A stretch of DNA of 64,000 nt from assembly GCF_014696435.1 (NCBI RefSeq), contig NZ_JACJQG010000007.1, forward strand, positions 114,477-178,476, written 5' to 3'. The notes beneath the pieces are model-generated. The model had not been told where the DNA came from, did not search any database, and saw nothing but the letters and a program-made list of their open reading frames with translations. The position numbers and the translations under genes are program-made. Positions 36,608-40,960 of this stretch are shown one piece after another. The DNA comes from Calothrix anomala FACHB-343 (lineage in GTDB: Bacteria; Cyanobacteriota; Cyanobacteriia; Cyanobacteriales; Nostocaceae). The number at the start of each line of letters is the position of its first letter. Position 1 is the first letter of the stretch.

Positions 36608-39583
36608 CTATATGTCTTGTGTAAATATGTCTATATTGCTTAAAGACTCTGCTAATTCTAAGGCTTGCTCGGAGGCTTGATTAGTAATATTAGCGACTTC
36701 CAAAACTTGTTGATTTGCGGAATATGAAGTTTGGGCTTGGAGAGTAGCGATTTGATTAATTTCAGCAGCCAGGGTTTTCATTTCTTGACTGATTGCGATC
36801 GCCTGATGAAGTTGCTGTTGAGTTTTTTCGATAAATGTTGTATCGCTGGCGACTTGTTCGGCTTTGGTTTCAATCGCCGCAATGATTTGGTGAGTTTCTG
36901 TCTGAATTTCCGCCACCAGTGGTTGCACTGCGGCAATATCTGAGTCTAACTCTTGAATTAAAGACAGTACCTTTTGCGCGATCGCTGCAAATTGTTGCCC
37001 GACTTCTCCAGCACGAGAAGCTTCTAATGCTGTCTGCATAGCTTGGAGTTTCATTTGTGAAACAACATTACTCATCAAATTGACAGTCTCACCGAGTTTT
37101 TGTGCAGGTTGTTCTATCCGGTTAGCGTTTTCGCCAGCTTCTACAATTGTTTTTTGGATAGTACAAATATTATTTAATAATTCGTTAATCGATTGATTTT
37201 CATCTTCTACCCATTGATTAAGATTTTGTTCTTGAAGTTCCATTTTTTGGGCAGAAACAATTAATTCTGTAGCAGAATCCCCTAATATTTGCATTTGATG
37301 GCAAATAGAATTAATCGATTGCATCTGCTGCGGTACAATTTCTGTAGATAAATTATGCACCACTTGATTGCTATTCTTGAGCAGTTTGACAACTTGCGAT
37401 TGCAGCTGTTCTTGTTTTTGTCGTTCCTGCACAGAAGTTGCCGAGGCAGATTGGTAGGCGCGATCTATTTGGTTGAGAAATCTGGCACGATCGAGAGCAA
37501 AGCCTACTTGCATAGCGACTTGCGCCAACAAATCAATTTCATGTTGTTGCCAATCGCGAGAACTAGAACATTGATGGGCAATTAATAAGCCATATAACTG
37601 ACCATCGTTGAGAATTGGCGCAACTAAATTAGCTATAACATCAAAGGGTGCAAGCTGCTGAAGATGACACTCACTCAAACCAGCTTCATGGATATTACTA
37701 ATAGCTTGGACTCTGCCGGCTTGATACTTTTCTACATAACCTTCAGTAAAACAGGGATCTTTAATTCTCGCCCACAAAGCTTTAGGAAAACCAGGTAGCA
37801 CCGATTCGGCAATCACAGTACCATACCAATCGGGATCGAAGCCATAAACCATGACTCTATCCGCACTAATGGCTTTACGAACTTCTTCCACCGTGGTTTT
37901 CAGGACATCATCCTCATTCAGGGACTCGTGAATCCGGCGCGTTAACTCTGCTAACAACTGAGTGCGCGCGCCTTCAGCGTCAATTCGTTGCAGCAGTCTT
38001 GCATGATCCAGCGCAAATCCTACTTGCATGGCGATTTGGGCGAATAAATCAATCTCACCTTGTCGCCAATCACGGGAACTAGTACATTGATGGGCAATTA
38101 ATAAGCCATATAACTTGTCATCTTTGAGAATTGGTGCGACTAAATTAGCTTTAACATCAAAGGGTGCAAGTTGATTAATATGACAGTCACTCAAACCAGC
38201 TTCATAAATATTACTAACAGCTTGAATTCTTCCTGCTTGGTACTTTTCTACATAGCCTTCCGCAAAACAAGGATCTTTAATTTTCGCCCACAAAGCTTTA
38301 GGAAAGCCTGGTAAAACTGATTCGGCAATTACAGTACCATACCATTCGGGATCGAAGCCATAAACTATAACTCGATCTGCACTAATTGTTTTGCGGACTT
38401 CTTCCACCGTAGTTTTGAGGACATCATCTTCATTCAGGGATTCGCGGATGCGGCGGGTAATCTCGACAAATAGCTGAGTTTGATTGGCTTTTGTATCTAC
38501 TTCTGCGAGTAGCTGGGTGTAGTTGAGCGTAAATCCTACTTGGCTAGCTACTTGAGAGAACAAATCAATCTCAAACTTCTGCCAAAAGCGGGGTTGAGAA
38601 CATTGATGAGCAATTAATAGACCGAATAGTTGCCCTTTTTTGATAATGGGTGCAACTAAATTCGCTTTCACCCCAAATCTTTCTAACAAGTTGATATGAC
38701 AATCAGTTAAACCTGCTTGGTAGATATCATCTATGGCAAAAATATAGCCATCGCGGTATTTTTCCACACAATCCCCTTGAAAACAAGGGTCTTTGACAGT
38801 AGTCCATAAGGTTTTTGGCAAACCAAATGCTACAGATTCAGCAATAAAAGTACCTTCACCATGAGGATTGAGGCGGAAAATGGTGACGCGATCGCAACTT
38901 AAAACTGTGCGGACTTGTTCAACAGTAGTTTTCAGGACATCTTCTTCATTCAAGCATTCTTGAATGCGGTGAGTAATGTCCATCACAATGTGGATTTGTT
39001 CTGCTTCCGCTTCTTGCTTCCACAGTAAATCTGGTAGCTGTTTTGTGATTAAGCTGATATTTTTCTCTAAGGTTAGCAGTTCATTTTTGCTGGTTTCGGC
39101 ACTGCGAATCCCTACATTTTCTGATATTAGCCTTTGCACAATATTATTAGACAGCGCAGCTGCATTTAACAGTGGACGAATGGCACGATTAGCTAAAATT
39201 GCCGCGATCGCACCTGCTAATACAGTTGTTACCCCTGTTCCCAGTAACAACATTGCTAGCTGTTTTTGCAGTTCTTCTTTACTGAGAGTTAAATTTTCAT
39301 TGCCAGCTGGTTTGGTATCGGGAATTTGCTCTTTAATTAGCTGATTACCCATGTAATAAGTTGCAGTCCCAATTGCCAACAAGGGAAGCATACTAATGGC
39401 GCAAGACCAAACTGTAGTTTTAGCCTTCAAACTCCAATTGCTCACTCCGAGTTGACGATAAGGAACTTGAATGATTGTCGGCAGTTTTGCATGATCTATA
39501 GTTGATTTCCCCACAGTTGGCTGACTACCCTGTAACTGATTTTTATCGTTACCTGCTTGCTTTCCACGAGAAGACTGAGTCAT
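36608..39583 (-). CDS. PixJ-like photosensory methyl-accepting chemotaxis protein with three DXCF-type GAF domains
   Basis: This 991-residue receptor has two membrane spans (about 57-78 and 111-132) around a small 32-residue outer loop, a linker, then three GAF domains (about 200-360, 372-532, 543-703), a coiled region and a methyl-accepting signalling domain (about 760-991). Each GAF holds a DPCF motif (Cys267, Cys439, Cys611) and a CH motif (Cys295, Cys467, Cys639). Every pair is exactly 28 residues apart, the layout of dual-cysteine, blue/green-type cyanobacteriochromes such as TePixJ. GAF2 and GAF3 are very alike, suggesting recent duplication. The protein should bind phycocyanobilin-type chromophores and control motility or pili through a CheA kinase encoded elsewhere. 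The scaffold gene follows it. Confidence 0.93.
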   Translation of the reverse strand: MTQSSRGKQAGNDKNQLQGSQPTVGKSTIDHAKLPTIIQVPYRQLGVSNWSLKAKTTVWSCAISMLPLLAIGTATYYMGNQLIKEQIPDTKPAGNENLTLSKEELQKQLAMLLLGTGVTTVLAGAIAAILANRAIRPLLNAAALSNNIVQRLISENVGIRSAETSKNELLTLEKNISLITKQLPDLLWKQEAEAEQIHIVMDITHRIQECLNEEDVLKTTVEQVRTVLSCDRVTIFRLNPHGEGTFIAESVAFGLPKTLWTTVKDPCFQGDCVEKYRDGYIFAIDDIYQAGLTDCHINLLERFGVKANLVAPIIKKGQLFGLLIAHQCSQPRFWQKFEIDLFSQVASQVGFTLNYTQLLAEVDTKANQTQLFVEITRRIRESLNEDDVLKTTVEEVRKTISADRVIVYGFDPEWYGTVIAESVLPGFPKALWAKIKDPCFAEGYVEKYQAGRIQAVSNIYEAGLSDCHINQLAPFDVKANLVAPILKDDKLYGLLIAHQCTSSRDWRQGEIDLFAQIAMQVGFALDHARLLQRIDAEGARTQLLAELTRRIHESLNEDDVLKTTVEEVRKAISADRVMVYGFDPDWYGTVIAESVLPGFPKALWARIKDPCFTEGYVEKYQAGRVQAISNIHEAGLSECHLQQLAPFDVIANLVAPILNDGQLYGLLIAHQCSSSRDWQQHEIDLLAQVAMQVGFALDRARFLNQIDRAYQSASATSVQERQKQEQLQSQVVKLLKNSNQVVHNLSTEIVPQQMQSINSICHQMQILGDSATELIVSAQKMELQEQNLNQWVEDENQSINELLNNICTIQKTIVEAGENANRIEQPAQKLGETVNLMSNVVSQMKLQAMQTALEASRAGEVGQQFAAIAQKVLSLIQELDSDIAAVQPLVAEIQTETHQIIAAIETKAEQVASDTTFIEKTQQQLHQAIAISQEMKTLAAEINQIATLQAQTSYSANQQVLEVANITNQASEQALELAESLSNIDIFTQDI

Positions 39584-40055
39584 AAATTATAGTCAGATGG
39601 TGCTACAGAATTTCTGTTATCAAAAACATTCTTCGCCACATTCATTTCATCAACTAAGTTGGTAGGGTAGTGCACTTAAGTATGACTGCGGCTTAGTCAA
39701 AGGTAGAGTTCAAAAAGTCCAAATTTTCCTGATGATTACGTATTAGACTTTTGTATCTCAGCTTATTTAGCTGATTACTCAGGCTTACAAGATTTTTGTA
39801 ATCTGCTAACAAATTACTCACAAAACCTGAGCTTGCTGAATTTACACCCTTGAGACTTTTTGTTTTTCCTGAGATATCTGATGCACCCAATTGCTACTGA
39901 TTGTGTATTTAGCTGAATCAAAAAGAAGCCTCTCACTCAGTCCGAAGGACGAGTGATGAGATGAATTTTTGGGTGATGACGAATTGACCCACAACCCTTT
40001 GGGTTCGCCAGTCACCTGCGACGGGAAACCCGTCTTCAGTGCTGGACTCACCAAT
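39584..40055. other. Spacer with chained small palindromes
   Basis: No credible gene is seen. 39930-40055 carries a series of small palindromes of dispersed Nostocales type (ACCCTTTGGGT at about 39994; GACGGGAAACCCGTC at about 40020). The chain continues into the ribbon-helix-helix gene. Confidence 0.6.
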
Positions 40056-40178
40056 TCAATCCGTAGGATTGACAGGGCAGGGGGTCGATGATACGCAGCG
40101 TAAAGCCTTCTCTTCGAGAGGCTTCGCCAACGGCATAGCTTCGCTTAGAGCGAGTCCGCGAGCGTCGGAATCACCAGT
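39955..40178. repeat. Dispersed palindrome-rich repeat invading the ribbon-helix-helix gene end
   Basis: Contains GACGGGAAACCCGTC, CTTCTCTTCGAGAGGCTTCG and GCTTCGCTTAGAGCGAG. I know such blocks as repeated elements in Nostoc-type genomes. It covers about the last 40 codons of the gene at 40056-40310. Confidence 0.65.
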
Positions 40179-40310
40179 TTTAGGGTTTGGCAACCTATCG
40201 ATCCAATCCTCTATTAGTTGTGTCACTGTTTTATCCTTGCCTGCTGCATACTGCCTCAGCTTGTTTAATCTACGTGTTGACATCCTGACGCTTAATCTAG
40301 AATCTTTCAT
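40056..40310 (-). CDS. Ribbon-helix-helix (CopG-like) protein with repeat-derived C-terminus
   Basis: Residues 1-45 form a ribbon-helix-helix DNA-binding domain: MKDSRLSVRMSTRRLNKLRQ, then YAAGKDKTVTQLIEDWIDRL. Such proteins dimerise and bind DNA through the N-terminal strand, often as transcription repressors or antitoxins. From about residue 50 (GDSDARGLALSEAMPLAKPL) the sequence is translated from a dispersed palindrome-rich repeat, so the natural stop has been lost and the tail is probably disordered. The start is ATG 40308-40310; an upstream ATG at 40334 adds 8 residues. No toxin gene is adjacent. It is divergent from the structured RNA, with about 40 bp between them. Confidence 0.7.
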   Translation of the reverse strand: MKDSRLSVRMSTRRLNKLRQYAAGKDKTVTQLIEDWIDRLPNPKTGDSDARGLALSEAMPLAKPLEEKALRCVSSTPCPVNPTD

Positions 40311-40350
40311 AACGGATATACATTGTGTACCCATTATGATATACTAAATT

Positions 40351-40680
40351 CATCCCAAACCCCTAGTTGGGAGAGAGGAGTAGCCGTGGTGGGCGAACCG
40401 CTCAAAGGGGAGCTAAAAAGGCTAGACACCACACTGGAACTAGAGGCGAATACTGTAGTCTCTACGCAAAAGTTCCTAAATAAAAGAGTTTACTGCCTGC
40501 GGGAGGCGGGCGGCTGCCTGGGTTCTCTCCTTAAAGAGATAAAGGACGCAAGTCCAGAGATGCTGTGTAAGTCTTGGAGCGTTTTTGGTAACGCACATTG
40601 TCTAGCAATGTCCCCAACAGAGCAACGGCAGATGAGACAGGAAGCCTACACTGTATACGAAGTATCATTGTAGGCACTTC
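40351..40680 (+). ncRNA. Large structured RNA, probable IscB-type omega RNA (HEARO), protein-less
   Basis: At least eight helices can be drawn by hand: TCCCAA/TTGGGA (40353/40367), GTGGTG/CACCAC (40386/40427), GCTC/GAGC (40400/40410), GGAACT/AGTTCC (40436/40471), AGAG/CTCT (40442/40460), TCTCT/AGAGA (40524/40556) enclosing GGAC-GCAA-GTCC, GCGTT/AACGC (40579/40590), ACATTG/CAATGT (40595/40606) and the closing GCCTACA/TGTAGGC (40644/40669). CCCCT (40360) can also pair with AGGGG (40406) as a pseudoknot. A frame is open across it, but its translation lacks protein character. Size, pseudoknot and style fit HEARO RNA, the guide RNA of IscB nucleases. No iscB follows within 300 bp on this strand. 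The family name is from memory of the motif and unverified; the RNA structure itself is clear. Confidence 0.6.
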
Positions 40681-40833
40681 ACTATCTTAGTGCTTAATTG
40701 AGCAGATGTATATTGTTAAACTTGGTAATTCTCATATATGCAGCAAGTAGCTGTATTTATGCAAATATATAAATTTTTGCATCTTCCAATAGACATATAA
40801 TTATCTATAAGTAGATTTTTTCGATAAAAAAAG

Positions 40834-40851: not shown

Positions 40852-40960
40852 ATAACCAAACATGAAAATTTCTTTGAAGAGTCAGTAGTCAGTAGTCAGT
40901 AGTCAACAGTCAACAGTCAACAGTCAACAGTCAACAGTCAACAGTCAACGCTATTTTCCA
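40849..40960. repeat. Composite repeat: CATAACCAAACATGAAAAT plus heptamers
   Basis: The short unit CATAACCAAACATGAAAAT is followed by about ten AGTCAAC/AGTCAGT heptamers and CAACGCTATTTTC. The same assembly recurs at 61240-61312. Confidence 0.8.

Follow-up and report, generated by a model that had tools for sequence, protein, structure and literature searches.

A cyanobacterial IS200/IS605-type element that appears to carry a free-standing TnpB-type omega RNA in place of a nuclease gene

Introduction

What would a large structured RNA of the guide type be doing in a genome where it has no nuclease of its own? The question is raised by positions 40351-40680 of the window, the 64,000-nucleotide stretch of Calothrix anomala FACHB-343 (contig NZ_JACJQG010000007.1) analyzed here, to which the original prediction assigned a solitary HEARO, the omega RNA of IscB, deprived of its nuclease and perhaps acting in trans. 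Trans-acting IscB RNAs have been proposed before, and in HEARO RNAs the guide lies on the 5' side, the other side from the guide of RNAs that serve TnpB, the DNA-cutting ancestor of Cas12. The outline of that prediction—a lone, nuclease-less RNA of the guide type—holds in our analysis, whereas the family and the polarity of the guide do not. We instead read 39913-40682 (Table 1) as a non-autonomous IS200/IS605-type element whose cargo would be a free-standing TnpB-type omega RNA used in trans, and give this reading a probability of about 0.68.

Table 1. Features of the element and its flanks, in window coordinates.
Feature	Start	End	Strand	Remark
Target motif TTTAG, left of the element	39908	39912	+	present in three empty sites
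Whole mobile element, 770 bp	39913	40682	+	borders set by empty sites of three congeners
Left end, with subterminal hairpin 39930-39960	39913	39975	+	DNA fold z = -3.1
Small ribbon-helix-helix-like gene, conserved part 40155-40310	40056	40310	-	divergent from the RNA
Promoter-like site, TATACA-17-TATACT, TG before the second box	40317	40345	+	
Putative omega RNA scaffold	40352	40682	+	5' end placed from the promoter-like site; sharp 3' edge of relatives after TTCAC
Predicted pseudoknot, CCCCU 40360-40364 with AGGGG 40406-40410	40360	40410	+	one compensatory pair, seven sequences
Conserved core (model R2), with GUAAG motif and GNRA hairpin 40544-40555	40509	40641	+	
Right-end hairpin, common to tnpB elements	40644	40675	+	
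Expected guide, the 3' flank TATCTTAGTGCTTAATTGAG	40683	40702	+	length by analogy

A conserved structured RNA without a conserved reading frame

The structured RNA is real. The minimum free energy of 40340-40690 is -118.4 kcal/mol (z = -3.2), a stability equaled by none of 100 shuffled sequences, and covariation bears out the same conclusion. In alignment A1, whose 36 rows—the window and 35 relatives—span the 3' half of the RNA, double-sided changes occur in 20 of the 25 pairs of five helices and 94.9% of the pairing cells hold pairs; neither figure is reached in any of 500 shuffles, and sliding the partners by 1-3 columns leaves only 32-49% pairing. The alignment was drawn from 44 loci, of which five lack the core start and four were left out (L067, L078, L079, and L080). 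The predicted GNRA tetraloop hairpin, GGAC-GCAA-GUCC, is present and covaries as helix 3 of A1, and single-stranded motifs such as GAUAAAG and GUAAG are nearly invariant. The long closing stem of the original prediction likewise exists and covaries (helix 5); it belongs to a mobile element, whose right-end hairpin it forms. In extent, too, the predicted RNA stands with a correction: the scaffold runs slightly further, and the mobile unit begins far upstream of it.

Support for the 5' domain is comparative, since the folding stability of 40350-40498 alone is unremarkable (z = -0.87). Across seven sequences, 10 of 26 pairs in this domain carry double-sided changes, which no shuffle among 500 reaches; further pair types do not rise above the shuffles, 369 of 500 of which reach the observed number. 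The predicted pseudoknot has one compensatory pair (five G-C and two C-G) in its favor and four remaining pairs that do not covary in the same seven sequences, and the first hairpin originally proposed contains no pair with double-sided changes among them.

The reading frame that is open across the RNA was said to have no protein character, and this proves correct: tblastn against the loci of 30 relatives meets frameshifts and in-frame stops. With the frames broken in relatives and nothing beyond a sub-threshold Pfam match (E 0.18), we rejected a protein-coding reading of 40323-40673.

Relation to HEARO RNAs

In favor of a stand-alone HEARO with a 5' guide, this genome does contain HEAROs, and a long structured RNA of a mobile element, free of any conserved ORF, resembles them in kind. 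The resemblance does not extend to the covariance model. Rfam gives no match at the RNA at gathering thresholds and nothing relevant at E <= 10; the comparison with RF02033 found no match at E up to 10. This missing match is informative because the HEARO model, serving as its own positive control, finds nine matches elsewhere in the genome, seven of them over the cut-off. Within the supposed 5' guide, TATGATATACTAAATTC, lies an extended -10 box, TGA followed by TATACT at 40340-40345, and relatives of this type have an AT-rich block at the corresponding position. Together with a sharp 3' edge after TTCAC, which fits a 3' guide, and a similarity that leads to TnpB omega RNAs, these findings make a HEARO very improbable, and we rejected it. 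As a separate observation, the genome's own HEARO loci (L006-L013) may also stand apart from nucleases in places: around the two inspected, L006 and L011, there is no IscB-like ORF.

Homology to TnpB omega RNAs

The likeness among relatives ends right after (T/C)ACTTCAC, beyond which the flanks differ. A wider pattern finds this end motif in all 44 chosen loci, as TACTTCAC in 42, one base off in L067 and two bases off in L065, while the window has CACTTCAC; a narrower first pattern had left 4 of 59 listed loci without an end. The end also leads to TnpB: of ten loci in which the match is confined to roughly the final 50 bases, seven have a TnpB-like ORF that terminates there, as judged by reading, with two confirmed by protein search and one by motif.

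Three covariance models connect the body of the RNA to the same source. R1, which combines the core with the end hairpin, has 14 matches in the own genome, comprising six strong stand-alone copies (132-188 bits), seven weaker matches (27-41 bits, E < 0.001), each immediately 3' of a TnpB TNB-domain match on the same strand, and a fourteenth at E 3.5 that is not behind a TnpB. To exclude that the end hairpin alone produced this result, R2 and R3 were built without it. R2, made from stand-alone cores, was run on 39 mixed sources, where the best matches after the window copy are three TnpB 3' ends (E 0.003-0.4), and on 30 TnpB loci, where eight of its nine matches lie at TnpB 3' ends in the sense orientation and the ninth is a stand-alone copy beside a tnpB. 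These eight are weak (13-20 bits, E 0.008-0.4) and, because all come from close relatives within one subgroup of 13 loci, not independent; the remaining 17 loci have none. The two sets share a gene, L293 of the 30 loci being L182 of the 39 sources, and in the own genome R2 finds no TnpB RNA at E <= 10.

The reciprocal test is the stronger. R3, made from 14 TnpB-gene 3' ends of the close subgroup, has 27 matches over 66 sources (375 kb), 23 of which fall, in 23 loci, inside stand-alone RNAs on the right strand at E 8e-7 to 0.044, the positions of those RNAs having been placed by R1 or blastn. Not counted are one match out of register (L076, E 0.16) and three second matches at E 1.1; the window copy is unmatched at E <= 10, and 42 further sources have no in-register match. 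RNAalifold gave R3 the same two core-framing helices as R1, and in both models one helix has UGUAAGACC following its 5' strand and GGC-A preceding its 3' strand. L182 and L152 are TnpBs by Pfam and NCBIfam. Taken together, these comparisons identify the window RNA as a putative TnpB-type omega RNA, the core of its family being homologous to the RNAs at TnpB 3' ends.

Borders of the element and the expected guide

Empty sites define the mobile unit. In one same-genus genome (L129, genome G108), the counterpart of window 39401-39912 runs directly into that of 40683 and beyond, at 93% identity and with neither a gap nor a duplication at the join, and the same empty junction recurs in L130 and L134 (genomes G149 and G056); in five of the eight other same-genus genomes the alignment does not reach the junction from both sides, and these are not counted. 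The segment between is thus an insertion after TTTAG that made no target duplication. Insertion of this kind, 3' of a short fixed motif, and subterminal hairpins at both ends are those of IS200/IS605-type elements, and the left end is common to tnpB elements of the own genome (for example, L180, L183, and L187) and of related genomes. Among 14 loci whose left-end match begins at base 1, the left flank is TTTAG in eight and one base away in six; TTTAG would be the transposon-associated motif of TnpB.

The interior holds neither the tnpA (Y1) nor the tnpB of an autonomous element: it has no ORF of TnpA or TnpB size, the longest being the 116-residue frame across the RNA, and the genome's Y1 and TnpB matches lie elsewhere. 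Since its own nuclease gene is absent, the element probably borrows TnpB from other elements for its maintenance in the genome. The layout of the DNA at its right end, with the 3' end of the RNA followed by a flank that could serve as guide, fits a TnpB omega RNA. The guide is expected in this 3' flank because the guide of a TnpB-type RNA lies 3', and the 20 bases concerned match the empty site beside TTTAG at 20 of 20 positions in L129 and at 19 of 20, read from the junctions, in L130 and L134.

ISDra2 is the nearest precedent. In the published account, its RNA derives from the right end, with about 16 terminal bases contributed by the flank, and the proposed mechanism has the insertion target double as the target-adjacent motif that licenses cutting of the donor joint (PMC8612924). 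With TTTAG and a 3' flank matching the empty site, the layout in the window is what that mechanism predicts, and the core is homologous to TnpB 3'-end RNAs of related genomes. Relative to the ISDra2 TnpB reRNA as described there, the window RNA differs in not lying at the 3' end of a tnpB, in a scaffold of about 330 rather than about 150 nucleotides, and in an extra 5' domain, two extra hairpins, and a promoter-like site of its own.

Could the element be an ends-only relic or MITE, mobilized in trans, whose fold is single-stranded DNA for transposase recognition and whose RNA has no function? Its ends and target motif are of the IS type, some copies are truncated, and PATE-like derivatives are known; a published one comprises 28 left-end bases, the final 58 bases of tnpB, and a right end (PMC7290912). 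Like it, the window element is a short IS605 derivative that keeps both ends, but the comparison stops at the interior. A PATE or MITE would be expected to have no conserved interior, whereas here the interior is a conserved, covarying RNA found in many genera, with helices that covary away from the ends, nearly invariant GAUAAAG and GUAAG motifs, and a promoter-like block conserved in front of the RNA. A relic is consequently unlikely as an account of the RNA. End-only remnants may nonetheless occur in the same genome, possibly represented by L141, L142, and L143 (on contigs C106, C102, and C103), which have window-like left ends with no TnpB-like ORF and no R1 match in 3 kb. A further peculiarity is found just right of the element, at window ~40877-40949, where heptamer direct repeats of CAACAGT resemble stretches in many places in the genus.

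A divergent small gene and a promoter-like site

Between the left end and the RNA lies a small gene on the opposite strand, with homologues in 107 of 193 family genomes. Its product resembles ribbon-helix-helix proteins, on the evidence of library matches below cut-off: Pfam returns sub-threshold matches only and NCBIfam none, and a single-sequence structure model has two helices at a mean pLDDT of 69. In the 30 best small-gene loci, a TnpB-like ORF stands beside the gene in 15 and an R1 match at E below 1e-13 in four; conversely, the gene is present in 9 of the 34 RNA loci of a first batch. These arrangements can be read as variants of a single plan, in which a left end and the small gene are followed by either tnpB or the RNA and then by a right end. 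Cyanobacterial TnpB elements with a divergent ribbon-helix-helix-like gene share the left end, the small gene, and the kind of target motif with the window element; they carry tnpB, where the window element has an RNA gene in its place. The promoter-like site precedes the RNA directly. By chance alone the region would hold 0.9 such sites, so its position and the AT-rich block of the relatives weigh more than its score.

These features invite the thought of a domesticated or regulatory RNA, used by a TnpB/Cas12-like or inactive effector for binding in place of cutting, or else regulating transposition, with the small protein as co-regulator. A scaffold longer than the ISDra2 TnpB RNA, the extra 5' domain, and the divergent gene in part of the copies would suit such a role, which we consider improbable: the flanks, and hence the guides, differ among copies, and the single guide compared agrees with the empty site of the element that carries it.

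Distribution of the family

A DNA search places the family at five sites in the own genome, the window included, and in 71 of 193 family genomes when partial and end-only matches are counted. R1 at E <= 1e-8 has matches in 23 of 292 phylum genomes, all in the order of the window. A core pattern applied to 84,980 species genomes yielded 64 stretches, every one from a cyanobacterial record, mostly Nostocales together with Microcoleus, Lyngbya, and a Phorm isolate. The pattern is absent from viral contigs and a 421-base query is unmatched in both the plasmid and the phage collection, on which grounds we set aside a plasmid or phage origin.

Nowhere among the 64 loci does the available sequence within 1.5 kb contain a credible TnpB, 33 loci having 1.5 kb on both sides and 47 having it upstream. 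The single TnpB match in that range (L267) was judged spurious, its query being a stop-to-stop ORF antisense of the small gene. The TTCAC end is present in 52 of the 64, with no [GT]A[CG]TTCAC in the searched span of the other 12, and the small gene in 9 of the 54 with at least 900 bases upstream. A nuclease encoded in cis by lower-scoring relatives was also considered and dropped: a motif search of 39 loci (L190-L228) turned up TnpB-like ORFs in just two, L218 and L219, whose scores are the lowest in the phylum R1 search. Encoding in or directly behind its tnpB, the usual place of such an RNA, is not what the window shows.

That the unit with the RNA is itself mobile is indicated most clearly by twelve aligned Calothrix copies, ten from Calothrix sp. 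MO_192.B10 and two from MO_167.B12, picked for matching left extents. All twelve start after TTTAA in their own flank and end in TACTTCAC, the right flank is readable in 11 and different in each, and none has a TnpB match or a small-gene match.

Candidate partners and proposed mechanism

The own genome offers 53 TnpB-domain matches and nine matches to Y1 transposases, the latter partial in some cases. A set of L182-like TnpBs at E <= 1e-60, which extends beyond the close subgroup, is represented in 28 of 60 genomes, namely in 18 of 20 that bear the RNA and 10 of 40 others (Fisher p = 1.7e-6), a comparison of hand-picked genome lists that is confounded by general IS load. The subgroup with the best-matching RNA is a candidate partner, but its left flank, in the one case read (L181), is TTTAC and not TTTAG; small-gene TnpB elements that do have TTTAG, such as L180, give weaker R1 matches or none.

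The reading of a TnpB acting in trans thus draws on the covariation, the homology found with R1, R2, and R3, the empty sites, and the left ends shared with tnpB elements, as well as on the TnpB and Y1 matches of the genome and the co-occurrence with TnpB. Against it stand the weak, non-independent scores of R2, the failure of R3 to match the window copy, the TTTAC of L181, and several copies that lack the 5' part of the RNA.

Beyond the layout of the DNA and the conservation of the RNA, we infer the following course. The RNA would be transcribed from its own promoter, starting near 40352, and read through TTCAC into the flank, which would thereby become the guide. Bound by a TnpB encoded elsewhere, it would direct cutting of the empty site—TTTAG plus the 3' flank—either once the element has been excised or on a sister copy that lacks the insertion, and repair from an element-bearing copy would restore the element. 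Excision and insertion would fall to a Y1 transposase, likewise encoded elsewhere and acting in trans, and the small ribbon-helix-helix-like protein probably regulates the divergent promoters.

It is conceivable that the window exemplifies widespread cyanobacterial guide-RNA-only transposons, which would have shed the nuclease, kept an enlarged, promoter-driven TnpB guide RNA, and parasitized the TnpBs of other elements for homing and retention, each insertion making a new guide; for this broader proposal we find belief and doubt evenly balanced. In searches confined to openly licensed papers we found no description of such elements. If the proposal is true, a TnpB system can have its guide RNA, in place of the nuclease, as the selfish unit. 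Whether the TnpBs of one genome act in trans for a whole community of elements becomes testable, and natural scaffolds of enlarged size become available for TnpB, with a structure defined by covariation.

Variation among copies

In L321, a stand-alone RNA copy at 586-692 is followed about 0.8 kb downstream, at 1501, by a tnpB from the subgroup whose RNA is most similar. Two copies of Calothrix sp. MO_192.B10, L261 and L282, share 99% identity across the 377 bases that extend from promoter to TTCAC but are unrelated upstream, and are probably rearranged or 5'-exchanged copies. The right-end hairpin is modular: two unrelated hairpin sequences both precede TACTTCAC, one in L074, L075, L077, L030, and L031 and the other in the remaining A1 rows, which suggests an exchange of right ends between element families.
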